A DNA stretch of 64,000 nucleotides, from NCBI RefSeq assembly GCF_012317585.1, contig NZ_CP042909.1, forward strand, positions 1 through 64,000. Direction: 5' to 3'. Positions 36,904-51,347 of the stretch are shown piece after piece; position 1 is the stretch's first letter, and each line of letters begins with the position of its first letter. Origin of the DNA: Thermosulfurimonas marina (GTDB lineage Bacteria; Desulfobacterota; Thermodesulfobacteria; Thermodesulfobacteriales; Thermodesulfobacteriaceae). Both the position numbers and the translations under genes were made by a program. The notes below the pieces were generated by a model. The model was not told the origin of the DNA. It made no database searches and saw nothing but the letters and a program-made list of their open reading frames with translations.

Positions 36904-37800
36904 TTAAAGCTCCAACCAGGATTCCGAAAAGATGGTCTTGCCTAAAAGGACCCGGGTGGTCTTGTAGATCTCAAGCTCTTTGGGAGAAAGGGTCTTGGGG
37001 TCCGGCTCGTCTCCGTCCATAATATCATGGACCAGTTTTACCCAATCCGGATGCTTCCCCTTGGCGATCTCCACCAGTTCCTGATCGTAAACATCCAGGA
37101 TGGCGGAGTAAATATTATATTTCATGAGCATCATGAGGTAGACCCGGTTGAGATAGGGACGTAGGTGAGAGGCCACCCCGTTGGAAACATTGGAAAGGCC
37201 CACAGTGCTTTTGGCCCCGGGAGCAATATCCTGCAACATGGAGAGAAATTCCAGGCCGGCCAAAATCTGTTCCGCCCCTAAGGTAATGGGGGTGGCGATG
37301 GGGTCCACCCAGATCTTTTCATTGGGAATACCCGCCTCGTTGAGCTTCATAATCAGATCCACGGCCAAAGCCGCCCTTTCGTTGGCGTCCCGGGGCATCC
37401 CCTCCGGTCCCCAGAGAAGAGCCACCACATCGCAACCCAGTTCCGCCGCAAGAGGAATGAGCTTTTCCATCCTCTCCGGCTGGGCAGAGATGGAGTTCAT
37501 GAGACAACGGGCCGGATTTTTGGAGGCCTTAAGGCCCGCGGCCATGGCCTCGGGATTGGTGGTGTCCAGGGAAATGGGCACATCCGTGACCTCTTCCACC
37601 ACCTTTACGATCCAGGCCGCAAGCTCCGGGCCGTCCTTTTTGGCCGGGCCGATGTTGAGATCCAGATAGTCTGCCCCCCGTTCAGCCTCCTCCCGGGCCA
37701 TCTTCTGGATGGGCTCGGGGTTGCGCTCCTTCATGGCCGGGCCAATGGTCTTAGACATAATGTTAATGGACTCGGCAATGCATACCACCTGCTGGCTCAT
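36904..37800 (-). CDS. acsE: Methyltetrahydrofolate:corrinoid/iron-sulfur protein methyltransferase
   Basis: Moves the methyl group from methyl-THF to the Co(I) of the corrinoid/iron-sulfur protein AcsCD, joining the two halves of the Wood-Ljungdahl pathway. The 298-aa TIM barrel belongs to the dihydropteroate-synthase superfamily. EEAERGADYLDLNIGPAKKD and PISLDTTNPEAMAAGLKA hold the pterin-binding Asp and Asn residues, and VGLSNVSNGV is also conserved. It lies between acsC and fdhA with 21 bp to acsC. Confidence 0.92.
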   Translation of the reverse strand: MSQQVVCIAESINIMSKTIGPAMKERNPEPIQKMAREEAERGADYLDLNIGPAKKDGPELAAWIVKVVEEVTDVPISLDTTNPEAMAAGLKASKNPARCLMNSISAQPERMEKLIPLAAELGCDVVALLWGPEGMPRDANERAALAVDLIMKLNEAGIPNEKIWVDPIATPITLGAEQILAGLEFLSMLQDIAPGAKSTVGLSNVSNGVASHLRPYLNRVYLMMLMKYNIYSAILDVYDQELVEIAKGKHPDWVKLVHDIMDGDEPDPKTLSPKELEIYKTTRVLLGKTIFSESWLEL

Positions 37801-37821: not shown

Positions 37822-39174
37822 TTAAGCCGCCTTCCATTCCTTGAGAAAGGCCGGAAGGCCGCTGGCCTCCCGCGGCCCGATCACGATCTCCCAATCCGGA
37901 AGCTCGTCTTCCAGTTCTCCTTTGATTCCCGCAAGGTATCCGGGGATAATCAACTTCCGGTGCTTCACTTTCTCGGCAATGCCGCATTTTTTGACAAATT
38001 CCGCAATGGTATCCGCCCCGAATTTTCCGGCGGCCCAGGCCGTAAGCACTGAAAGCCCTTCGGTGTCCTTAATAAGAAGCCAGGAAGGAACCCGGCTCCC
38101 TTCCACCTCTCCGGAAACGATGAAGTAGGTCAGGGCAAAATTGCAGGTGATGAGGACCGGCGAGTTCTCGTCCGGGCCATTGATGGGATAGATCCCCTCC
38201 TCTACTACCAGTGGTTTCTGGGGATCGGTGAAGATGTTCATCCGTTCCACAAAAAGGGGAAAGAGCACATCTGGCCGAAAATCCGAAAGCACCACCGCCC
38301 CGGCGTACTTGGGAATCAATACCGCCGCCAGGATAGCCTCGGAGAGGAAATCCCGGGCATAGCGATAGGGAAAGGTAATAGTGGGGAAGCCGAAGGGCTT
38401 AAAGCGCTTCTTGATGGCCGCCCGACGCACGATCACCTGATCCTCATAGAGCTCGCGCACGCTCTGGGCTCCAGTATCCAGCACCAGATCTTTAAGTCCC
38501 ATTTTGAGAAGCTCTTCGGAGATCCGGGCTGTCTCCCCAAGATTTTCCCCCTTGACCGCCAGGGCGGCCTTCTTCTCTTTGGCTAGCTCGCCCAACTCTT
38601 TAAAGTTATCCAGAGTGGCCGCATAAAGAAGCGGGCGATGTTCCCCGCAGAGATCACAGGCCCCCGAAAGGGCCTCCGGATCTCCACTCATAAGCACTAA
38701 GACCGCCTCTGGAAGCTCCTCCCGTACCCGTTTAACCAGAGAGACAAAGGCCTCTTTCCCGGACCCGGCATCTTCCACGGCCACCATCTGGGGCTCAAGC
38801 TGCACCCCCACCCTCTCCCAACGGCACCTCTTAAAGGCCGAAAGTCTCCGCGACACCTCTTCCTCGGCCATGTCCGTGGCCACCCGCACCCCCACCGCGG
38901 TAGGGTTTTCAAAGCGCTTTTCGTGCCGAAAAAGGACGGTCTCTCCCCCCAGCTTTACCTGATGCTCCCCGCTTCCCAGGACCACGGTCCGGATGGGCGG
39001 CGCCGAGGCCTCCGCAATCTCCTCCTTCACCGCCGGGTCCACATGCGGGCACTTGTCGATCTCCACCTGCCCGGCAGCCACCTTCATGGCAAAGGCCAGA
39101 CAGGTAGGGAAGCCGCAGTCCCCACAGTTGGTCTTGGGCAGCTTCTGCATTATCTGGATACCGGTCAGTCCCAT
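37822..39174 (-). CDS. acsC: Corrinoid/iron-sulfur protein large subunit
   Basis: The large subunit (450 aa) of the corrinoid/iron-sulfur protein, which carries the methyl group to acetyl-CoA synthase. Its N-terminal [4Fe-4S] domain has Cys residues at 17, 20, 25 and 42 (NCGDCGFPTC; IDKCP). A TIM barrel and a C-terminal B12-binding domain follow. The small subunit is fused to MetF at 41426-43852. Confidence 0.93.
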   Translation of the reverse strand: MGLTGIQIMQKLPKTNCGDCGFPTCLAFAMKVAAGQVEIDKCPHVDPAVKEEIAEASAPPIRTVVLGSGEHQVKLGGETVLFRHEKRFENPTAVGVRVATDMAEEEVSRRLSAFKRCRWERVGVQLEPQMVAVEDAGSGKEAFVSLVKRVREELPEAVLVLMSGDPEALSGACDLCGEHRPLLYAATLDNFKELGELAKEKKAALAVKGENLGETARISEELLKMGLKDLVLDTGAQSVRELYEDQVIVRRAAIKKRFKPFGFPTITFPYRYARDFLSEAILAAVLIPKYAGAVVLSDFRPDVLFPLFVERMNIFTDPQKPLVVEEGIYPINGPDENSPVLITCNFALTYFIVSGEVEGSRVPSWLLIKDTEGLSVLTAWAAGKFGADTIAEFVKKCGIAEKVKHRKLIIPGYLAGIKGELEDELPDWEIVIGPREASGLPAFLKEWKAA

Positions 39175-39187
39175 CGCAGCCCTCCCT

Positions 39188-41410
39188 TTACATCAGAGGT
39201 TCCATCTCAAGCACCGGGTGCTTGACCTTCTCGATCCACTCCTTGACCTCCTGTTCACTGGTGGCCACGGTCTCGTCGGCGATCTTGTCCAGGAGGTCCG
39301 GAATCCCCAACTCTTCGGCCCGTTTCTGTAGGCGCTCCTTCAATTCTTCCTTGAGCATCTTGGGCATCCAGACCACCCGCTTAAGCCCTCCTTCGGCCAA
39401 AAGAAACTTCCGCGAGGTAATGTAGTGCTTGGAGACTCCCATGAAACCCGGCGTGACCTGGCCCCCACCCACCATTCCGGCCATGGTGGAAAACTTCATT
39501 CCTGTGGGGGTCATGCCCATGTAGTCCCGGTTGACGATCATGATTCCGTTTACCGAGGGCAGCACCGCAGCAATACACTCAAAACACCCGCAGGCGGTCA
39601 TGGGGTCCACCAGGATGCTGTAAAGGCTCACCCGTTCCACCTTGCCCCGGCTGGCCTTTTTCACGAATTCGTTAATTCCGGAAAACTGACCTAGACGTTC
39701 GTCAAGGAGCTCCCCTTTTTCAATGGGCTGGTTGGGTCCTGCGGGATTGAGCTCGTAGCAGGCCTTCCCGTCCAGCCAGTTGTAAGCCCCGCACATTCCG
39801 ATCCGCTCCGGGGTAATTACGCACACATGGCTGGGGGCAAAGCTCTGGCAAAGGGTGCAGGAATAGTAGACATCCACGCTTTCATCGGTCATGCCCGCAA
39901 TCCGGGCATCCCGCTTGGCATAGACCTCCTTGGCCAGCTCCAGGATCTCCTTGACCTTGTCCTCCTCGGTATAGATGGTCACCTGGCATTTGTCCACGAT
40001 GGCCCCGAATTCCTGGCGCATCTTAGCGTAAAGGATCTGTCCGATGTGCCGGAAAAGGAAGCCTTTTTCCACAGCCTGTTTGCTGATGCGCAGCCACATG
40101 ATGTTCCGCTGGCCTACATGCATAATCCCCTGGGCATAGTTGATAAGATGGTGAAACTGCCGCTCCAGGATGGCCTCAAAATCCTCCTGCATGTTGGCTC
40201 CGGCTACCTCCACCACCACGGCGAAGGGCAGCCGGTAAGGCGGACCCGGAAGACCCAGCTTCTCCACCTCATTGATCTCCGGCCCGATGACCTCGATCTT
40301 GCCGTCCTCTACCTCATCCAAGGGCTTGGAAAGCAGGAGTTCCACCGCCGGGGTCCGACCTCCCCCGCACTCCAGGTAAAGATCGTCCTTACGCACCCGT
40401 TCTCCCTCAAAGGCCGGGGCGTAGGCCACCGGAATGTCCAGCTTGACCGTGGTCACCTTGAGCCCCCGGACCTCAATGGCCCGGTCTACGATCTCCTCGT
40501 GCGGCACCCGGGAGACCACATGTTCGTACATACAGATCCCGTAGGGCTTGATCTCCGGCTCATCCCAGTCGGAGATCACCGGAAAGCCCCAGTTGATAGC
40601 CCCGGCTCCGTTGGCGTACCATTCCTCGGAGATGGGCCCGAAGGTAATCACAAAGGCGAAGGTCCGGTCCTTGTTGTAGAGGAGATTGCCCATATAGTCC
40701 CCGGGCTTGATACCCCCAAAGGCCATGGCCACCCGACAGGCAAACCCGATGGCGAAGACCACCGAGGTATAGTCCGGCCCGAAGGGGACCAGCCGGGTGG
40801 GCCAGCCGAGCTGTACCCCGGCCTCCTTGAGCATCTCCGGCATGTAGCGCCCGTCGGTATGATGATGCATAAATACATAGAGGTTTTTTTCCTGAAGCTC
40901 TTGGGCGATGCGCACCGCGGTCTCTTTGTCCGGCGGGGCTCCCAGGATGGCCGCAAAGCCCGGAGCGGTTCCGTCCACAAACTCCACTCCTCGCTTCCGG
41001 AAAATAACGTCGTCGGCGGCCCCAAGCCAGATATTCCCGTTTACCGGCTCCTCGGTCTTGGTATAGAAGTTGGGATCTTCCAAATACCGGATGGCCTCGA
41101 TGATCTCTTCGGCAAAGAAGGTGGCCATCCCCGCATCCAGCGCCGGTCCCAGGTAAGGGGTCCAGAGATGTTCGTCTGGTACCGGAGGAAGAAGCTTCCG
41201 AGCCTCCTCCAGGACCTCTCCGCAGTCCCCCAATCTCTTTACCGGATAGCCCAACATGGCGTAGATGATGGGAAGATAGTAGGCGGTGTTCGGAAAGGCC
41301 ACCTCCGCTTCCTTGCCGAATTTCTTCACCGCCTCTTCATATTTTTCCTGGGCCTGCTCCACAATCTTGTGAGCCCCGCGAATGGCCTTGGTGGCAATGA
41401 TCTTCGACAT
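39188..41410 (-). CDS. acsB: CO dehydrogenase/acetyl-CoA synthase, ACS subunit
   Basis: Condenses CO, a corrinoid-bound methyl group and CoA into acetyl-CoA. The 740-aa bacterial ACS has the full set of A-cluster ligands: C518, C521, C530, C540 and the Cys-Gly-Cys at 607-609 (YSCTLCQSFAPSHVC; GMCGAYNW; TACGCFEC). The spacing is that of the Moorella enzyme shifted by 12. The N-terminal domain (about 1-310) that docks CooS is present. The gap to acsC is 13 bp. Confidence 0.96.
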   Translation of the reverse strand: MSKIIATKAIRGAHKIVEQAQEKYEEAVKKFGKEAEVAFPNTAYYLPIIYAMLGYPVKRLGDCGEVLEEARKLLPPVPDEHLWTPYLGPALDAGMATFFAEEIIEAIRYLEDPNFYTKTEEPVNGNIWLGAADDVIFRKRGVEFVDGTAPGFAAILGAPPDKETAVRIAQELQEKNLYVFMHHHTDGRYMPEMLKEAGVQLGWPTRLVPFGPDYTSVVFAIGFACRVAMAFGGIKPGDYMGNLLYNKDRTFAFVITFGPISEEWYANGAGAINWGFPVISDWDEPEIKPYGICMYEHVVSRVPHEEIVDRAIEVRGLKVTTVKLDIPVAYAPAFEGERVRKDDLYLECGGGRTPAVELLLSKPLDEVEDGKIEVIGPEINEVEKLGLPGPPYRLPFAVVVEVAGANMQEDFEAILERQFHHLINYAQGIMHVGQRNIMWLRISKQAVEKGFLFRHIGQILYAKMRQEFGAIVDKCQVTIYTEEDKVKEILELAKEVYAKRDARIAGMTDESVDVYYSCTLCQSFAPSHVCVITPERIGMCGAYNWLDGKACYELNPAGPNQPIEKGELLDERLGQFSGINEFVKKASRGKVERVSLYSILVDPMTACGCFECIAAVLPSVNGIMIVNRDYMGMTPTGMKFSTMAGMVGGGQVTPGFMGVSKHYITSRKFLLAEGGLKRVVWMPKMLKEELKERLQKRAEELGIPDLLDKIADETVATSEQEVKEWIEKVKHPVLEMEPLM

Positions 41411-41425
41411 ACCTTAACCCCTCCT

Positions 41426-43852
41426 TTAACTTTGTTGCATAAGACCGCTTATTATCGTTTTTGTCAACTCTATGGCTTTGGGATGCCGCATGATGAAAAG
41501 ATCCCCTCCGGCTAGGGCCAGGGCCACGGAGGTGATGGCCTCCATGAGGATTCCCCGGATCTCCTGATCTCCCAGGGTCTCATCGCTGGGAAGGCCGGCT
41601 TCTTTGGTCTTCCAGACCTCACGGCCTACATTGCAGACGAAAGGTACCTGGAGTTTGTCGTCCTGGGCGTAAAGGGCCGCAAGCCGGATGCGCTCCATCA
41701 CCGAATAGGTGTATTCCAATCCATAGCCCAGGGCCCCAATGGAAGGATCCATGAGGATCTTGTCTAGCGACACCCCCACGTTTTCCAGGAGAATATTGAG
41801 TTGCTTGGCTAAATTAACGTCAATAGGACTTGAGGCCACCACCGGGAGTCCGTATCCCATGGCCGTAGCCCCTAAAGTACGGTGATTGGCCTCTTCAACC
41901 GGTCCAATCACCGCTCCCCGGTCTCCTACCACCTCCGCCACTTCGCGCAGGACCTCCACGTCCTTTTCCGCATGTCCCGCCCCCCAGATGATCAAAGGCA
42001 CTTCCACCGCCGAAGCCACTTTTTCCACGACCTCTCGCGCATGTTTGGCATCCAGATTGAGATAATTGGGGTCGGTCCCTAAGAGATAGACGCATACGGC
42101 CTCGGCCCCGTAAACTTCCACACATTTTTTGGCCCAGGCCGCAGGGTCCCCTAATACCTCGGCAAAGTACTTGGTGAGACTCTCCGGCCAGTCCTCGGGT
42201 TTTACATCCAGGACCTCCATCGCAATCCGCGGGGGATGGCGCATCTCGCCTTCAAAGAGGTGGAAGGGCAAAACGTTGGTCCCTCCCACCTTGAAGGCCT
42301 TGGCGCCCTTTCCGATCTCCACCTCCCGAATATAGGCTGTGCCGGGGTCTTTATAGAGATCCTCCGGAAGCCCAGCCGCCCGTTCCGAAAGAGGGCGATA
42401 CTCTCCGGAGAAGCCCAAAATTTCTACCCCTTCCGGCGGAGCGGCCAGAGCCTCTACCGGCGGCTTCTCCTCCACCGGGGGCCTTTCCTTTGCCGGAGGC
42501 CTTTCCTCCGGAGGTTTTTCTTCCTTGACCTCCACCTTTTCCGCAGGTTTTTCCTCTTTGACCTCTACCTCTTCCACCACCTCTTCGGGTCGGACCTCTT
42601 CTTTCGGGGGTTTCTCCTCCGGCTTGACCTCTTCCACCGGCGGCGCCTCGGCCTTTACTTCTACCCGCGGAATCTCCACCCTTTCGACGGGCACCACCTC
42701 GCCCCCCAGAAGGGCCCGCTCCAGCCGGGCCAAGCTGTCGTGGAGGAGGTTTACCCCCTCTCTCAAGGCCTCCATGCTGGAACGGATGGTGGAAAAGACC
42801 TCTTTTACGGCCTCCACCGGGATCTCCAGCTTCGGCGGGACCTCGGGCCCCTTTTCAGCCGGAGGCGCCAGTACCTCCACCCGCTCCACGGGCTTTTCCA
42901 CCTCCACGGCAATGGGTGGACGTACCTCGGCCTCCAGGGGCCGCGGATGAAGCCCCGCGCGCTTCACAATTTCCGGGACGGCCTCCTCCCACTCAATGGC
43001 CATAATATGGACCCCGGCTACCCCCGGGATCTCGCGCACCCGCTGAATAATCTCCACCGCGAGATTAATCCCCTCCTCCCGCTTGTCCTTGGCCTCCTTC
43101 ATCCGCTGAAGGATCTCGTCCGGAACATCGAGCCCGGGCACGAAATATTTCATGTAACGGGCCATTCCGAAGGACTTGGGCGGAGTGATTCCGGCAAGAA
43201 TATAGGCCTTCTCCACAAGCCCCATATCCCGGGCCATTTCCATGAACTTCCGAAACCGCTCCACATTGTAAACAATCTGGGTCTGGATGAATTCCGCCCC
43301 GGCGGCGATCTTTTTGGCCAGACGCTTGACCCGGAACTCAAAGGGATCGGCAAAGGGATTGGCCGCCGCCCCCAGGAAGAACTGCGGTCGGTCCCCGGTA
43401 AGTTCCTCCCCGCAGAGGAACTTGCCTTCGTCCCGCATCCGCCGGACCATATCTAGAAGCTGGATGGAATCCAAATCAAAGACCCCTTTGGCCTCCGGGT
43501 GGTTTCCAAATTTCTGATGATCTCCCGTAATACAGAGGAGATTGCGTACCCCCAGGGCCGCCGCTCCCAGAAGGTCGGCCTGAATCCCGATCCGGTTGCG
43601 ATCCCTGCAAGTCATCTGAATGACCGGCTCTACCCCCTCGGCCATCACTAGAACCGCCGAGGCGATAGAGGACATACGCACAATGGCCGTTTGACAGTCG
43701 GTAATATTGGCCGCATCCACATATCCCTTAAGAAGGCGGGCCTTGCGCCGCACGACCTCGCCGTCGGCACTCTTGGGAGGCCCGATCTCCGCCGTGACCG
43801 CAAAATGCCCTTCGGAAAGTACCCGCTGTAAATGGCTCCTTGGCTCCACCAC
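41426..43852 (-). CDS. MetF-AcsD fusion: methylene-THF reductase joined to corrinoid protein small subunit
   Basis: A 808-aa bifunctional chain. Residues 1-305 are a MetF-type methylene-THF reductase (FAVTAEIGPPKSADGE; NLLCITGDHQKFGNHPEAKG; FIQTQIVYNVERF; AYILAGITPPKS). Residues 306-475 are a flexible Pro/Glu/Lys/Val-rich linker with repeated EVKEEKPxEK units. Residues 476-808 are AcsD, the small corrinoid-protein subunit, a TIM barrel (KVGGTNVLPFHLFEGEM; YLLGTDPNYLN; LMDPSIGALGYGLEYTYSV). No stop or frameshift separates the parts. The fusion tethers the enzyme that makes methyl-THF to the protein that accepts its methyl group. MetV is encoded next door, so the reductase is of the MetVF kind. 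Confidence 0.92.
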   Translation of the reverse strand: MVEPRSHLQRVLSEGHFAVTAEIGPPKSADGEVVRRKARLLKGYVDAANITDCQTAIVRMSSIASAVLVMAEGVEPVIQMTCRDRNRIGIQADLLGAAALGVRNLLCITGDHQKFGNHPEAKGVFDLDSIQLLDMVRRMRDEGKFLCGEELTGDRPQFFLGAAANPFADPFEFRVKRLAKKIAAGAEFIQTQIVYNVERFRKFMEMARDMGLVEKAYILAGITPPKSFGMARYMKYFVPGLDVPDEILQRMKEAKDKREEGINLAVEIIQRVREIPGVAGVHIMAIEWEEAVPEIVKRAGLHPRPLEAEVRPPIAVEVEKPVERVEVLAPPAEKGPEVPPKLEIPVEAVKEVFSTIRSSMEALREGVNLLHDSLARLERALLGGEVVPVERVEIPRVEVKAEAPPVEEVKPEEKPPKEEVRPEEVVEEVEVKEEKPAEKVEVKEEKPPEERPPAKERPPVEEKPPVEALAAPPEGVEILGFSGEYRPLSERAAGLPEDLYKDPGTAYIREVEIGKGAKAFKVGGTNVLPFHLFEGEMRHPPRIAMEVLDVKPEDWPESLTKYFAEVLGDPAAWAKKCVEVYGAEAVCVYLLGTDPNYLNLDAKHAREVVEKVASAVEVPLIIWGAGHAEKDVEVLREVAEVVGDRGAVIGPVEEANHRTLGATAMGYGLPVVASSPIDVNLAKQLNILLENVGVSLDKILMDPSIGALGYGLEYTYSVMERIRLAALYAQDDKLQVPFVCNVGREVWKTKEAGLPSDETLGDQEIRGILMEAITSVALALAGGDLFIMRHPKAIELTKTIISGLMQQS

Positions 43853-43870: not shown

Positions 43871-44542
43871 TTACCCTAACCTCAGGTCTTCTCTTACCCT
43901 CTCCCGGGGACCCCCGTGGCCCGCCGGGCGCCAATCCTTGGCCGGGAAAAAGGCCAGAAGCCTCTCCAGCTCTCCCCGCTCTGAAAGCCTCTCATAGATC
44001 TGGTACCATACACAGGGGACCTCCGGGCGAATCTCGCAGCGCCCCCCCTGAGAGCCCCCACAGGGGCCGTTCAAAAGATTTTTGGCACACCGGGCGATGG
44101 GACAAAGCCCCCCGGTCACATCGACAATACAGTCCCCACAGCCCCGACACTTCTCCTGCCACTCCCCCAGGGCGGGATTGGCCCCGTAAAAGGTGGTATC
44201 CACTCCGGGATAGACCCGGATCTCCGGGAAAAGATCCGCAATGAGGTTGACCCCCACCCCGCAGGCCATGGAAACCACCGCCTCGTAATCCCGGGCCAGC
44301 TCCCGCAGCGGGGCCAGATACTCCGGGTCGCACTGGCGAATGAGCGTGGCCTCTCCGGTCACCAGCTCTCGTCCGGCCCGTTTGCGGGCCAGCCTCAGGG
44401 CCGCCGCCAGGGTCTCCACCTCTCGGTCCCCTCCGGCCGAACAGATGGCCACACAGCCTCGACACCCCAGAACCAAAACCCTCTCATAAGGCTCAATGGC
44501 CTTCAAAATTTTGGGAAGGGGCCTTCGTTCAGCAATTATCAT
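43871..44542 (-). CDS. metV: MetV-type zinc/iron-sulfur partner of methylene-THF reductase
   Basis: A 223-aa partner of the MetF domain. The C-terminal Cys-rich domain (CRGCGDCIVDVTGGLCPIAR; CAKNLLNGPCGGSQGGRCE) is the MetV signature, and the N-terminal half has an MvhD/HdrB-like CRGCVAICSAGGDRE segment. It has no flavin site of its own. It sits directly upstream of metF-acsD (18 bp) and downstream of the mvhD/hdrC-like genes, the same neighbourhood as in the MetVF-Hdr complex known from Moorella. Confidence 0.9.
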   Translation of the reverse strand: MIIAERRPLPKILKAIEPYERVLVLGCRGCVAICSAGGDREVETLAAALRLARKRAGRELVTGEATLIRQCDPEYLAPLRELARDYEAVVSMACGVGVNLIADLFPEIRVYPGVDTTFYGANPALGEWQEKCRGCGDCIVDVTGGLCPIARCAKNLLNGPCGGSQGGRCEIRPEVPCVWYQIYERLSERGELERLLAFFPAKDWRPAGHGGPRERVREDLRLG

Positions 44543-44555
44543 TTTGACAATCTCC

Positions 44556-44936
44556 TCAAGAATTAGATTTTATTTTTAAAGCTGTTTCGAAGGTCTTTTT
44601 GACCTCGGCCATGAAGGGGCCGGTGTCCAGCCGCGGAAGATAGGCAAAGCGGACCCTTTCCGCCTCCAGGCCGATTTCCTCCAGGATCTTTTGGGCCCCC
44701 AAGACCTTCTTTTCCGCCCGCAGGCTTCCGGAAAGGTTATGACACTTGTCCTTTTCGCAGCCGGCCACCAGAACCGCCTCCGCCCCTTCCTCAAAGGTCT
44801 TGAGGATATCGGCCACCTCGATGTGGCCCGAGCAGGGGTAGCGCCGCACAATCACCGTGCCCGGGATCTGGCGAAAATCTTCCTCTCCGGCCTGGTTGGT
44901 ATAGTGGCAACAAAGCACTCCGATGGTCACCTTCAT
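44556..44936 (-). CDS. MvhD-like hydrogenase iron-sulfur subunit (second copy)
   Basis: A 126-aa protein of the MvhD/FrhD family that usually binds one [2Fe-2S] cluster and passes electrons to HdrA. VLCCHYTNQAGEED, RYPCSGHIEV and LVAGCEKDKCHNLSG match the family Cys positions, and here the fourth position is ordinary Cys (GCEKDKC), unlike the Sec copy at 45484. The start is the ATG at 44936. An alternative start lies three codons upstream. The length is typical. Confidence 0.82.
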   Translation of the reverse strand: MKVTIGVLCCHYTNQAGEEDFRQIPGTVIVRRYPCSGHIEVADILKTFEEGAEAVLVAGCEKDKCHNLSGSLRAEKKVLGAQKILEEIGLEAERVRFAYLPRLDTGPFMAEVKKTFETALKIKSNS

Positions 44937-44941
44937 GCCCC

Positions 44942-45487
44942 TCACACCCCCACTCTTAAAATCTCAAACTCCGCCGCGGGCTTCATCTCGATGGCCCGGG
45001 CGGGGCACTCCCGCACACAGATCCCGCAGGCGTGGCATTTGGCCGGATCAATCACCGCATAACCCTCTTCCCGGATGCTCGGAGCCCCAAAGGGACAAAC
45101 CCGTACACAGGTAAGGCACACAATGCATTTTCCGGGATTGACCCGGGCCAGTCTTCCGGCCTCGAAAAGATCCTCCTCCGTGGCCAGTCCCGTCTTGAGG
45201 GCATAGTTCCGCAGGGCCCGGATGACCTCCGCCGGCTTTACCTCCATGGGACAGACCGGGACACAACTTTCGCACTGGGAACACCACCAGAGAAGGGGGC
45301 GGCCGAAAAGTTTTTCCTTAAGCCCCAGGATGGTGGCATGCACAATCACCCGAGGATCAAACTCCTTGCGGGTCTTTTTCACCGGACAGATCCCCGAACA
45401 GGCCCCACAGCGGAAACACTGACTATAAGTCTCCGGAAGCCCCTCCACCTGCGGAAGCCACTCCCTTTCAAGCAAAAGCTCCATCAC
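44942..45487 (-). CDS. HdrC-like ferredoxin with four [4Fe-4S] clusters
   Basis: A 181-aa iron-sulfur protein. The N-terminal half resembles HdrC, with CFRCGACSGICPVKK and CSQCESCVPVCPMEVKP. The C-terminal half adds a two-cluster ferredoxin (CIVCLTCVRVCPFGAP; CHACGICVRECPARAIEM). HdrB, the usual HdrC partner carrying non-cubane clusters, is not encoded here. It probably wires HdrA/MvhD to MetV. It overlaps mvhD by 4 bp. Confidence 0.82.
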   Translation of the reverse strand: MMELLLEREWLPQVEGLPETYSQCFRCGACSGICPVKKTRKEFDPRVIVHATILGLKEKLFGRPLLWWCSQCESCVPVCPMEVKPAEVIRALRNYALKTGLATEEDLFEAGRLARVNPGKCIVCLTCVRVCPFGAPSIREEGYAVIDPAKCHACGICVRECPARAIEMKPAAEFEILRVGV

Positions 45488-46200
45488 TTTTTCCCCTTTT
45501 CCAGAGATTTGAGGATACCCGAAAGTTCTTCCTCGGTAGCCCCGGTGGCCTGAGCCAGGGCCTCAAGACTCTGGGGCCCTTGGGAAAGCAGCTCCCGGAC
45601 CTCGGCCTCAAAGATGCGCTTTCTGATCTGGGGAAGGAGCTTCTTTTCCACTAGGGCCTCGATATTTTCCGGGCTGTAGTCCCCGAGTTTTTTGATCTCC
45701 CGGGCCAAATTTCCGTACTGGGCCCTAAACTGCATGTTTTCGCAGAGCTTGCGGGCGGACTCCAAGCGAAACCGCAGGGTCTGCCGAGAAAGACCCTCCG
45801 CCTCCCCGAGAGGACCGAGCTTTTTGATCCTTTCAGTAAAATCGGTGACCAATTTCACGAAACGGGGGCCCTCGGCCGCTGAGGCCCAGTCGATATAAAA
45901 TCTCTCTCTCCGGATCCCCACGGTATCGAGGATCCTCCTTACCGTTTCCGCCATCACCAAAGCTTCGAAATTACCAGACTGGTAATGACATTCCCCGAGG
46001 TGTCACCCGCCTACAAAGACTCCGTCAGAGCCCACGTAAAAGGCCTCTACCACAAACCGGGGATCCATGCGACCGGTACACATGATGCGGATGACCCGGT
46101 TATTGGGGGGATAGTTGAACCGGGCCACCCCGGCAGAGTCCGCCGCGGCATAGCAGCACCAGTTACAGAGAAAGCTCAGGATCCTGGGCTCAAATCCCAT
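45484..46200 (-). CDS. MvhD-like iron-sulfur subunit, selenoprotein, with helical C-terminal extension
   Basis: A 238-aa electron-transfer subunit. The first 65 codons give the MvhD start (FLCNWCCYAAADSAGVARF; VIRIMCTGRMDP; DGVFVGG). The TGA at 46005-46003 replaces the Cys codon of the family pattern GGC-H-x-G-x-C-H-Y, and the frame continues U-HLGECHYQSGNFEA. Position and continuity argue for selenocysteine (Sec66). An extra C-terminal domain of about 100 residues (about 140-238), charged and helical with a possible winged-helix end (LEALAQATGATEEELSGIL), is not part of ordinary MvhD. A SECIS-like hairpin follows the TGA. Confidence 0.88.
45970..45986 (-). promoter_or_regulatory. Bacterial SECIS-like hairpin in mvhD
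   Basis: On the minus strand ATTACC-AGTCT-GGTAAT forms a 6-bp stem with a G-U-containing loop, about 16 nt after the TGA at 46003. The stem can be extended by an A-T pair next to the loop. Confidence 0.65.
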
Positions 46201-46212
46201 AATCCTCCTCCT

Positions 46213-49200
46213 TTAAGCGGCTTCCTTGGTCTCTTCACTAGCGGCCTTCTCTTCGGCCTCCTCCAGGCCGAAGGCACGGATCTGCTCCAAGATGGCCTCG
46301 TCGGTAAAACCTCCCAGGGTGATGGCAAAGACCGGACAGTGCGCCCCGCAGACCCCGCATCCCTTACAGGCCGCAGAGATCACCTGGGCCTTGCGCCGTT
46401 TGTCCACTTTGACCATCTCGATGGCGCTGTAGGGACAGAGGGCCGCACAGATCCCGCAGCCGATGCACTTTTCCGCATCCACCCGGGAGACGATGGGCGG
46501 AACCTCCACATAGCCTTTGGCCAGAGGGATAGCGGCCTTGGCCGCCGCAGCCCGAGCCTGGGCCAAGGTCTCAGCCAGGGGCTTGGGACCATGGGCCAGA
46601 CCGCAGACATACACCCCATCCACCGCTACCTCCACCGGCTTGAGCTTTACGTGGGCCTCAAGTACGAAACCCTCCGGGGTAAGCGGGGTCTTGAGGATCT
46701 GGGCCACCGGGTTTTCGGCCTCGGCCTCCACCCCTACGGAAAGGACCACCAGATCCGCGGGGATCTCCACCTCTTCTCCCAATAGGGCATCGCAGGTTTT
46801 TACCCGCACTCCCCGGCCCTTCTTTATCACTTCCGGCCGCCGCTCCGGCTCGTAGCGCAAAAAGACCACTCCCCGGTTGCGGGCCTCCCGATAGAGCTCC
46901 TCGTAAAAACCATAGGTGCGCAAGTCACGATAGAGGATGAAGATCTCGGCCTCAGGCTTGAGCTCTTTGAATTTGAGGGCGTTTTTCACCGCCTGGGTAC
47001 AGCAAAGCTTACTGCAATAGGGAAGCTCCTCCCCCCGGGAGCCCGCACACTGAATCATCACCACCCGCTTGACCTTGCCTAGGGCCCGCTTGCCCTGAGA
47101 GAGCTTTTCCTCAAACTCGAGCTGGGTAAGGACCTTGGGGCTTTCGCCATAGAGGTAGCCCCGGGGACGATGTTCGTGGGCCCCGGTGGCCAGGACCACT
47201 ACTCCATGGTTGACCACCTGAGAGCCCTCGGCCACCCGAAGGGTGGAGGTGAAATTACCCACATAACCCGAGATGTTTTCCACCGTAGCCCCGGTATAAA
47301 GGTGGATCCGGGGGTGCTTTTCTACTTTCTTTATCAAATCCTTCAGAATCTTCTGCGGATCCTCTCCTTCGGCCAAAAAGCGCACCCGCCGCAGGTTCCC
47401 CCCGAGCTCCTTTTCCCTTTCCACTAGATGGACTTCAAAGCCCTGCTCGGCGATGGAAAGGGCGGCCTGCATCCCTGCCGCCCCGCCTCCGATGACCAGG
47501 GCCGCCGGCGTGACCTTTACCTTCTGAAGCTCAAGCGGGCGCAGCCTTCGGGCCTTGGCCACGGCCATCCGCACCTGGTCCATGGCCTTGCGGGTGGCCG
47601 CCTCGGGATCGTCGGCATGCACCCAGGCACACTGGTCCCGGATGTTGGCCATCTCCACCAGGGCCAGGTTGAGCCCCGCCTCCCGCAGGGTCTCCTGAAA
47701 GAGGGGTTCATGGGTCCGGGGACTGCAAGCCGCAATCACCAGGCGGTTGAGCTTGTGTTCCCGGATAATTTCCTTGAGACGTTCTAGGGAATCCTGGGCG
47801 CAGGAATAGACCATGTTGTCCGCATAGACCACCCCCGGGAGACTAGCCGCATAATCCTTGACCCGCTGAACGTCCACCACTCCGGCAATGTTCACCCCGC
47901 AATGACAGACAAAGACCCCCACCCGGGGCTCCAGAGAGAGCAACTCTTCGTCTTCCGGAGGAAAACTCTTCTCTACCGCGTCCTTTCCGCGGACCTCAGA
48001 GAGGAGTTCGGAGACCTGGGCGGCCGCACCACTGGCCTGCATCACGCTTTCGGGAATGTCCTTCGGCCCCTGAAAGGCCCCGGCCACATAGATTCCCGGC
48101 CTGAGGGTCAGGGGATCCGCCGCCGAGGTCCGGGCAAAACCGAAGGGATTGAGCTCCACCCCGAACCTCTGGGCCAACTCTTCGGCTCCGGCCGGGGCCG
48201 AAAGCCCCACCGAAAGAACCACCATATCAAAGAGCTCCCGGTGGACCTCCCCCTCCTCGGTAACGTAGGTCAGCCCCAGACGGCCGTCCACCTGCTCCAC
48301 CTTGGGTACCCGGGCCCGGACCACCCGCAGGCCGTATTTTTCCACCGCCCGCTCAAAGGCCGCATCAAAGCCCTTGCCCATGGTGCGGATATCCATAAAA
48401 AAGAGGGCAATTTCGGTCTCGGGGGCATGTTCCTTGAGCATAGAGGCCTCTTTCATGGCGTACATGCAGCAGACCGAGGAGCAGAAGGGCCGCCCGCAGG
48501 AGACATCCCGGGAGCCTACACACTGGAGGAAGGCGATCTTCCGGGGATGGGTGAGGTCTGAGGGGCGTAGGATTTCTCCTTCGGTAGGGCCGGAAACACA
48601 CATCAAACGCTCGATCTCCAGGCTGGTCATCACATCGGGATAGACCCCGTAGCCGTACTTGGTAAGGGCCTCCTCCGGCACCTCCCCGAACCCGGGACAG
48701 AGGACCACCGCCCCCACCTCAAGCTCCCGCACCTCGGGTTTTTGCGAAAAATCTATGGCCTTAGGGCCGCAGACGTTGGTGCAAATCATACAGGTCTCAT
48801 GGTTGAGCCGGAGACAACGCTCTTCATCAATGTAATAAGAGGTAGGAACCGCCTGAGGAAAGTCGATGCGCGCGGCCCGGGTGAAATCGAGCCGCTCATT
48901 ATACTCGTCCACGGCCTCCCGCGGACAGTACTGCATACACTGTCCACAGGCCGTGCACTTGTCCGGATCCACATAGCGGGGCCTAATCTTTACCCGGGCC
49001 TTGAAATTTCCCGGCCGCCCGGAGAGACCCTCCACCTCGGCCAGGGTTAGGATTTCAATGTTGGGAGACCGACCGGCCTCCACCATCTTGGGCGCCAGTA
49101 TTCAGATACTGCAGTCGTTGGTGGGGAAGGTCTTGTCGAGCTTGGCCATCACCCCCCCGATGGAGGCCTTCTTCTCCACCAGGTAGACGTAATAGCCAAG

Positions 49201-49298: not shown

Positions 49299-51347
49299 TT
49301 AGGCGGCCTTCTTTTCCTCCTCCGGCGAGACCCGGAGAGAGACCGGTCCAAAACAGCCCAGCCCATGGAAAGGACTGGTGACCTTGGGGCTCTCCAGGGC
49401 CCGCCGCATGGCCATGTCGTAAAGGACCCGCGGCTTGGGTTTGTCGATCCCCAGGGCCTTACGCTTGGCCTGAATATGGTCGATCATGATGGCCGCGAAT
49501 TCCCCGGCCTTGCGGGCCACCCTCCAGCCAGCCCCAAAGATCCTTTCCATCTCGTGGAAGAGGAAGTCGGTGGCCACCTGGCTTTTGAGCGTGGGGAAGT
49601 CCGGTCCGAAGACCACCGTGGCCCCACTGGCCACAAAGTATTGCCCGATGGTGATGGCCTTCTCGCTCATCCACTGCGGGGCGCATCCTACGGCCGGAAG
49701 ATCACTAATATCCTCGCCCAGACCCCCGGTGTTCACCATTTCCGTGGCCGCGATAAGGATCCGGCTGTTGTCCACGCAGGAGCCCATGTGCAGCACCGGA
49801 GGACAACCTACGGCCTCCAGGACCTCCCGCAGGGAGTCCCCGGCCAACTCCGCCGCCTCGGGCCTCAAAAGTCCGGCCCGCCCCAGTCCGGTGGCCGCAC
49901 AACCGGTGGTCAGCACCAGGACGTTATTGGCGATAAGTTCCTTGGCCAGCTCCACATGGACCTCTTCGTCCACCCGGAAGTTGTCGCAACCCACAATGGC
50001 CGCCACTCCCAGGATCTTTCCGTTGATGATGTTTTCGTTAAGGGGCTTGTAAGAGGCCCGGAAGCGCCCTCCGAGCATGTAGAGGATGGTCTCGTGGCTG
50101 AAGCCCACCACCACATCCACGGAATGATCCGGGATGTCCACCCGGGACTTATCCCGCTTGGGGAAACGGGCGATGGCCTCTCGCAGGATCTGTTTGGCGC
50201 ACTCCAGGGCCTTGCGGGCGTCAAACTCGATATGGATGGCCCCTTCCATGCGGGCCCGGGGATTGGTGGTAATCACCGCGGTATGAAAGTGCCGGGCGAT
50301 TTCGGCCACATTCTGCATGATGCACTGCACATCCACCACCACCGCCTCTAGGGCCCCGGTGGCGATAGCCGCCTCTTGCTGGAGAAAACTTCCGGCCACC
50401 GGGATCCCCCGACGCATAAGGACCTCGTTGCCCGTACAGCAGATGCCCGCAAGGTTCACCCCCTTGGCCCCCACTTTTTTGGCCTCTTCCACGATCTCCG
50501 GATCGCTGGCCGCTATGGCTAGGGCCTCGGCCAAAACCGGCTCATGCCCGTGCACGGCCACATTGACCATGTCCTCCCGAATGACACTGAGCCCGATGTT
50601 AACCCGGGCCTTAATGGGGCCGGGGTTTCCGAAAAGGAGGTCTTGAAATTCGGTGGCGATCATGGAGCCGCCCCAGCCGTCGGCCAGGGCCGTGCGGGCA
50701 CAGGCCATAAAGATATTCCGATGGTCCTGGTCCACCCCGATGGTGGTCCGGTGAAGGAGTTCCACCACCTCCCGGTCCACACCTCGAGGCCAGACTCCAA
50801 GCTCCCGCCAGAGCTGTTTCCTCTTTTCTGGAGCCCGGTTGAGGAGAGGGATCTCTCCCTCCTGCTGATTGAAGACCCGCAGGGCGGCCTCGGCCATTTC
50901 CTGGAGGAGGGCTTGCTCTTCCTGATCAGGATTTACCCCCAAGGCCTGGGCCACCACCCGCAGTTTCCGCTTGTCCTTAACCTCAAAGGGGGTCTCCCCA
51001 TGGACGGTCTCATAGAAGTCGATGGCCACCTGGCGGCCGTGATCCGAGTGGGCCGAGGCCCCTCCGGCCACCATACGTCCAAAGTTACGGGCCACCACCG
51101 TAGCCGCGCTGGCCCCGCAGACCCCGCGCAACTCCTCCACCCCTTCCACTACCTGACAAGGCCCCATGTTGCACACCCGGCAACAGGTGCCTCCCTTTCC
51201 AAAAAGACAGGGCGTGGTCCCCCGGCGCTCCACCCGGGCCGGAGTGGTCAGGACTTCGTCCCCCAGCCTTTCATAGATGACCCGGGCGGTCTCGTTCTGG
51301 ACCTTGGGCGCGGCCTTCTTCTTTTTGAAACGAGCCCTGGTGTCCAT
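49299..51347 (-). CDS. cooS: Anaerobic carbon-monoxide dehydrogenase catalytic subunit
   Basis: Interconverts CO2 and CO at a Ni-Fe-S C-cluster and feeds CO to AcsB. The 682-aa chain has the B/D-cluster region CLFGKGGTCCRVCNMGPCQ and GVCGASAATVVARNF near the N-terminus, the C-cluster region with VVVDVQCIMQNV, GICCTGNEVLMRRG, VLTTGCAATGLGRAG and VLHMGSCVDNSR, and HSDHGR. All expected Cys and His blocks are present. It is 20 bp upstream of hdrA and may have its own promoter at 51384-51410. Confidence 0.95.
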   Translation of the reverse strand: MDTRARFKKKKAAPKVQNETARVIYERLGDEVLTTPARVERRGTTPCLFGKGGTCCRVCNMGPCQVVEGVEELRGVCGASAATVVARNFGRMVAGGASAHSDHGRQVAIDFYETVHGETPFEVKDKRKLRVVAQALGVNPDQEEQALLQEMAEAALRVFNQQEGEIPLLNRAPEKRKQLWRELGVWPRGVDREVVELLHRTTIGVDQDHRNIFMACARTALADGWGGSMIATEFQDLLFGNPGPIKARVNIGLSVIREDMVNVAVHGHEPVLAEALAIAASDPEIVEEAKKVGAKGVNLAGICCTGNEVLMRRGIPVAGSFLQQEAAIATGALEAVVVDVQCIMQNVAEIARHFHTAVITTNPRARMEGAIHIEFDARKALECAKQILREAIARFPKRDKSRVDIPDHSVDVVVGFSHETILYMLGGRFRASYKPLNENIINGKILGVAAIVGCDNFRVDEEVHVELAKELIANNVLVLTTGCAATGLGRAGLLRPEAAELAGDSLREVLEAVGCPPVLHMGSCVDNSRILIAATEMVNTGGLGEDISDLPAVGCAPQWMSEKAITIGQYFVASGATVVFGPDFPTLKSQVATDFLFHEMERIFGAGWRVARKAGEFAAIMIDHIQAKRKALGIDKPKPRVLYDMAMRRALESPKVTSPFHGLGCFGPVSLRVSPEEEKKAA

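Follow-up and report, generated by a model that had tools for sequence, protein, structure and literature searches.

The enzymes of the bacterial Wood-Ljungdahl pathway (WLP) are known mostly from acetogens, in which the methylenetetrahydrofolate (methylene-THF) reductase MetF and the corrinoid/Fe-S protein (CFeSP) are separate. The small CFeSP subunit AcsD/CfsB (PF03599; structures 2H9A, 2YCL, 4DJD and 9FZY) is described as a separate protein of about 310-325 aa. Likewise, MetF of acetogens and of the Moorella MetFV-HdrABC-MvhD complex stands alone, without a covalent link to CFeSP. In the locus analysed here, which lies in a window of 64,000 nt from Thermosulfurimonas marina, both proteins are parts of one chain of 808 aa: MetF is fused, and the C-terminal half, all of it homologous to AcsD/CfsB, carries a tether at its N terminus. 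The MetF domain and the neighbouring MetV, MvhD and Hdr-like genes are common to the window and the acetogen and Moorella systems.

The fused gene and its neighbourhood

The MetF-linker-AcsD fusion gene is located at positions 41426 to 43852 of the minus strand. It is a single open frame, in agreement with the preliminary description, which had reported MetF and AcsD in one uninterrupted frame, and the identical fusion is found in relatives. The gene starts with GTG at 43852, which has GAGGAGG just upstream, and its stop codon is at 41426-41428. In the protein, the Pfam search found MTHFR at residues 8-300 (5e-43) and CdhD at residues 510-739 (3e-42), and no domain besides these two. The AlphaFold model, for which an alignment of 39 rows was used, contains two confident barrels.

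The first barrel is the MetF domain (residues 1-305, positions 42938-43852). Its match to PF02219 (5.5e-43) spans profile positions 2-287 of 287 and thus the whole barrel, its closest solved structures by sequence are MTHFRs, and Foldseek places the predicted model near the Thermus MTHFR 8eac_A (TMt 0.80). Residues E22, T109-G110-D111 and Q190-T191-Q192 are invariant in 17 aligned fusions; we take them to be the equivalents of the catalytic residues Glu28, Asp120 and Gln183 of E. coli MTHFR. Judged by sequence, the MetF half is a predicted methylenetetrahydrofolate reductase. The second barrel, AcsD (residues about 480-808, positions 41429-42415), includes a conserved N-terminal extension of 25 residues. 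AcsD indeed makes up the C-terminal half, but the conserved region begins nearer residues 484-508 than residue 476, where its start had been placed. This half matches PF03599 (3.5e-42) and NF003376 (370 bits, above the cut-off of 280; the remaining AcsD models stay below cut-off). By sequence it is closest to the solved CFeSP small subunits 2h9a_B (4e-82), 4djd_D and 9fzy_E, and Foldseek on the model also finds 2h9a_B (TMt 0.93). It is therefore the predicted small CFeSP subunit and the putative heterodimer partner of AcsC, which is encoded nearby.

The fused copy is the only AcsD encoded in the genome. The second and last MetF-like match, at 1413015, lies inside a 651-aa frame which is probably a methionine-type homocysteine methyltransferase/MTHFR, so that the fusion would be the sole pathway-type MetF and the flux of the pathway is expected to run through it.

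The fusion is preceded, likewise on the minus strand, by the genes for MetV, the partner of MetF (43871-44542; PF12225, 1e-35), an MvhD-like protein (44556-44945; PF02662), an HdrC-like Fe-S protein with Fer4 domains (44942-45487), an HdrA-like flavoprotein with Pyr_redox_2 and Fer4 domains (46213-49086), and the catalytic subunit of CODH (49299-51347; TIGR01702 above cut-off). It is followed on the same strand by AcsB, the acetyl-CoA synthase (39188-41410; NF040764 above cut-off), AcsC, the large corrinoid-protein subunit (37822-39174; NF003195 above cut-off), and AcsE, the methyl-THF:corrinoid methyltransferase (36904-37800; Pterin_bind, with PRK07535 below cut-off); the location beside AcsB, AcsC and AcsE given in the preliminary description is thus confirmed. 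An additional gene between the HdrA-like and the HdrC-like genes (45484-45960) probably extends further upstream, and in relatives its N terminus is MvhD-like. The window-type gene order is CODH, HdrA, HdrC-like, MvhD, MetV, fusion, AcsB, AcsC, AcsE, Fdh, and the MetV, MvhD and Hdr-like genes adjoin metF as expected of a MetFV-Hdr complex, which is predicted here. This arrangement is absent from the gene order in Desulfobulbia, which is FolD, CODH, fusion, AcsB, AcsC, Fdh, HdrA.

A conserved heptad helix between variable spacers

The two enzyme domains are connected by a linker of 174 residues (about 306-479), which is rich in Glu (25%), Val (17%), Pro (16%) and Lys (9%), the composition for which it had initially attracted attention. 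It had been regarded as a flexible charged tether. Disordered spacers are indeed present, but the linker also holds a conserved heptad helix, and linkers of relatives contain TPR or other helical modules. The first spacer (residues about 306-345, positions 42818-42937) is variable, Pro/Glu/Val-rich and predicted to be disordered (pLDDT under 50 at 315-346). The helix (residues about 346-382, positions 42707-42817) comprises five heptads with a hydrophobic core. The second spacer (residues about 383-479, positions 42416-42706; pLDDT under 50) is Pro/Glu/Lys-rich and carries EVKEEKPxEK-like units. Repeats of this kind had been noted and do exist in tandem, but a 33-bp period is present in only some two copies, together with a repeat of 18 bp.

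The same mosaic was found in the fusions of the order to which the window belongs: 43-78 variable residues, a 36-residue helix, 86-182 variable residues, and the 25-residue AcsD extension. Across 27 aligned fusions of the order the helix has no insertion or deletion, and its pairwise identity is 50%, compared to 37% in the spacer after it. At its ten heptad core positions (V3, F7, I10, M14, L17, V21, L24, L28, L31 and L35 in the window), 97-100% of the sequences have a hydrophobic residue, one glycine and one Leu-Glu pair are nearly invariant, and the heptad periodicity has a p value of 2e-4. In the AlphaFold model of the window protein, calculated as a monomer, the linker has pLDDT under 50 apart from one helix at 346-381 with about 60. 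The heptad periodicity within the predicted helix suggests a coiled-coil-like, putative oligomerisation element. One genus retains the fusion with a much shorter helix.

Linkers outside the order are built differently. In the other families they are 207-436 aa long, and some of them harbour a lengthy coiled-coil-like region, TPR repeats and a module with the conserved sequence 'REQ.VL.SLN.GL.AL.K.LGLS..QFEA...F'. Those of Desulfobulbia contain a related module and an Ala/Lys/Glu stretch, drawn by AlphaFold as a single helix of 67 residues. A shared ancestry of the helix of the window's order and the 'NEKER..AL..GL.ALKKAYGLSD.QF' module of other families is at best possible, as the hhalign probability is only 24%.

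Distribution, single origin and natural fission

The fusion is present in nearly every genome of the order, in frames without internal stops, and a scan of genome contigs detected it also in Desulfobulbia (Desulfobulbaceae, Desulfocapsa, Desulfurivibrio). A census of the phylum found AcsD in 220 of 345 genomes; the 34 AcsDs with the best scores comprise 32 encoded in frames of 722-1187 aa and the two split ones described below. All 20 genomes opened from 11 other families encode MetF-AcsD fusions, and thus the fusion extends to at least 11 families of the phylum besides the order of the window. The search for the same domain pair elsewhere, proposed in the preliminary description, was accordingly successful. 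The possibility raised there that a sequencing error joins two genes does not apply: since full-length fused frames free of internal stops exist in the majority of the order's genomes and in all 20 genomes opened elsewhere, chance, sequencing error or misassembly is ruled out by conservation in dozens of genomes. In Desulfurivibrio dismutans AMeS2 (L101), the sole AcsD resides in a 906-aa frame; this bacterium is reported to be an obligate WLP autotroph with similar expression across its WLP gene cluster (PMC12142623).

Among the Bacillota and Chloroflexota sampled, almost every AcsD is encoded in a frame of about 310-380 aa, with one longer frame in each phylum. These two frames (781 aa, G494:C34:17820-18725, Bacillota; 1073 aa, G609:C28:214358-215233, Chloroflexota) are possible fusions.

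In the AcsD tree, fused and split sequences form one clade (support 98/94) within which the split ones are nested. The MetF tree agrees (SH-aLRT 93) and has the adjacent, unfused MetF of L096 as sister. At L096 and in Ca. Desulfaltia bathyphila (L098), MetF and AcsD are unfused but lie side by side in the same order, as would be predicted for the time prior to the fusion. The agreement of both trees favours one origin over independent fusion events and indicates one ancient fusion followed by later fission.

The fission was found in four genomes of one genus (G014, G020, G025 and G027), in which MetF closes with a stop and AcsD has its own ribosome site and ATG. We considered frameshift artefacts and rejected them, since each of these signals is present in each case and one of the genomes, G014, is a single contig. 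The split AcsD has the linker helix at its N terminus and a charged spacer behind it. CODH encoded in the same cluster is extended at its N terminus by roughly 100 residues, which include a similar helix and spacer. A profile made from fusion linkers only matches both the split AcsD (1e-11 to 3e-8) and CODH (4e-11 to 7e-8). In 19 whole genomes, the helix search revealed no further convincing copy beyond those in the fusion, AcsD and CODH, and CODH of the window genome had no match. When the helices themselves were shuffled with preservation of the heptads, the strongest CODH score was reached in none of 3000 shuffles and the weakest in 4 of 3000. The CODH helix and the linker helix therefore likely share common descent; the 4 shuffles leave a slim chance that their similarity arose by convergence of coiled coils. 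For an assembly element, one would expect just such a matching pair of helices, one on AcsD and one on CODH.

Several other arrangements came to light in this survey. Two complete genomes of the genus with the split genes (G010, L039:7009-8487(-); G012, L042:6446-7867(-)) keep ACS, CFeSP and the fusion, but all that matches CODH in them is its C-terminal part, at about 35% identity and in fusion with a two-cluster ferredoxin domain; they have ACS without a normal CODH. At L037 and L038 (G026, G029), MetF lies beside MetV and FolD, there is no AcsD match genome-wide, and the linker is gone too. AcsD fused to CODH via a Pro/Ala-rich linker of about 190 residues with a possible helix was found at L213:2890-6294(-), L214:1925-5374(-) and L212:5315-8683(+), and is apparently another way to tether AcsD; the occurrence of such fusions in other families supports the view of AcsD as a tethering hub. 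Finally, at L210:4637-6238(-), L220:5130-6719(+), L225:5151-6770(-), L211:5582-7177(+) and L221:5779-7401(+), AcsD has a possible docking tail, about 200 residues of (KAEAEAKA)n sequence at the C terminus, which at L210, L220 and L225 ends in a conserved motif such as AGPDGxYILRQLxRxRLRGDGIL.

A candidate assembly device and its alternatives

Based on these observations, we propose, with a probability of roughly 60%, that the fusion is a bifunctional scaffold of the WLP, in which the linker serves as tether and as oligomerisation or docking element that assembles a complex. The MetF half would reduce methylene-THF, probably together with MetV and the adjacent Hdr and MvhD proteins, while the AcsD half would form CFeSP with AcsC. 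CFeSP would then take the methyl group from methyl-THF through AcsE and hand it to AcsB. The disordered spacers on both sides of the 36-residue helix could give both ends mobility and reach, and the helix may self-associate or dock on a partner, thereby gathering several MetF-AcsD chains. Through these chains, AcsC, AcsE and CODH/ACS would join one assembly with MetF-MetV/Hdr. AcsD would be the scaffold half of the shuttle and a sensible place for an anchor, since the cobalt domain could still travel between AcsE and AcsB; faster transfer from methyl-THF may follow from the assembly. Helix oligomerisation, complex formation and more efficient methyl transfer are what we infer from the conserved fusion of single origin, the fixed-length helix between spacers of free length and the split AcsD that keeps its helix, as well as from the TPRs in linkers of relatives and the AcsD-CODH fusions. 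Against a scaffold speak the monomer pLDDT of the helix (only about 60), the lack of such a helix in CODH of genomes with the fused gene, the slim chance of convergence left by the shuffles, and the genus in which the helix is much shorter.

The fusion was originally thought to couple the maker of methyl-THF to the acceptor of its methyl group. MetF is indeed joined to a part of CFeSP, but AcsD alone is not the methyl acceptor, since the corrinoid is mainly on AcsC and is loaded by AcsE. A tether that holds MetF near the AcsE-CFeSP pair, so that methyl-THF is passed on before it diffuses off, would fit with the joining of consecutive parts of the methyl branch next to AcsB, AcsC and AcsE, and with the fact that the fusion contains the sole AcsD and the sole pathway-type MetF that the genome encodes. 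Such channelling is nevertheless rather unlikely: AcsE, which binds methyl-THF, is untethered, the model does not place the two barrels confidently relative to each other (pTM 0.49), and on general grounds a spacer of this length would provide only modest local enrichment of a small, diffusible compound. Complex assembly is the better-supported role of the linker. Slightly less probable still is a passive fusion with a meaningless spacer, in which selection acted solely on having MetF and AcsD expressed jointly and in equal amounts. In its favour, the two genes already lay side by side prior to fusion, as at L096 and L098, and the spacers vary freely in sequence and length; however, this does not explain a fixed-length helix inside free spacers, the TPR and further conserved modules in linkers of relatives, or the helix that was kept on AcsD after fission and resembles that on CODH.

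Disordered linkers are prone to proteolysis, and in-frame GTG codons with weak ribosome-site-like sequences exist at residues 322, 346 and 406, so two proteins could arise by cleavage of the linker or by an additional internal start of AcsD. We regard this as improbable, because these weak GTG candidates are the only internal starts in the linker, no conserved processing motif was seen in the aligned linkers, and genes that are truly separate, those of the split genomes, evolved a clear stop, ribosome site and ATG. About equally improbable, if not more so, is a role in electron delivery, in which the tether would bring CFeSP within reach of the MetV/Hdr electron chain so that inactive Co(II) is reduced again. 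The fusion does lie directly behind the MetV, MvhD, HdrC-like and HdrA-like genes, both in the window and in many families, but the fusions of Desulfobulbia have no adjoining MetV or MvhD.

Extending the assembly reading to the phylum, it is tempting to speculate that much of Desulfobacterota runs the WLP as a covalently tethered, coiled-coil-assembled metabolon, with AcsD as the hub bound to MetF or CODH by fusion or by matching helices. This would be an ancient, undescribed organisation of bacterial CO2 fixation, and we put it forward tentatively.

Comparison with described systems

In the open-access papers that were searched, we found no description of a MetF-AcsD fusion. In the T. dismutans genome paper, TDIS_1006 appears as methylene-THF reductase with no further remark (PMC4911364); since TDIS_1009 (AcsE) lies close by, we infer that this is the fusion gene. 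For the Ca. Desulfobulbus rimicarensis epibiont, two metF genes and no metV were reported (PMC7117923), and a study from 2026 on the pathway in Desulfobacterota mentions neither metF nor the fusion (PMC12827605). The fusion is not mentioned in these three papers, nor in those on Dissulfurimicrobium (PMC8780430) and on bifurcation (a review, PMC6085437). The fusion combines known enzymes in a new domain architecture, which likely has a role in assembly.

This architecture is important for several reasons. In no fewer than a dozen families of anaerobic sulfur bacteria, obligate autotrophs among them, a fusion of single origin joins the reductase of the methyl branch to the corrinoid protein, and its natural fission suggests that the linker helix acts in assembly. 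The question whether the WLP operates as a metabolon thus becomes directly testable. Further, the tether, the helix, the TPR modules and the AcsD-CODH fusions are natural parts for building a metabolon.

Among bifunctional proteins, the homocysteine methyltransferase/MTHFR of the PRK08645 type is likewise a fusion of MetF to a methyl-acceptor enzyme. Of the bifunctional models, it scores best on the MetF half, with 238 bits, which is below its cut-off of 453, but its partner and domain order differ from those in the window; the separate 651-aa frame of the genome may be of this type. In the archaeal ACDS complex (CdhABCDE), the CFeSP subunits are held with CODH/ACS by subunit contacts, without MetF or a tether. 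By analogy, it would work like the proposed assembly in that CFeSP is kept together with CODH/ACS. The E2 proteins of 2-oxoacid dehydrogenases offer an analogous design, since their domains are likewise arranged on flexible Pro-rich or charged spacers around a small helical element. However, they have no sequence relation to the fusion, which lacks the lipoyl arm. An E2-type swinging-arm protein was rejected: Pfam finds MTHFR and CdhD only, and no lipoyl/biotinyl or peripheral-subunit-binding domain.
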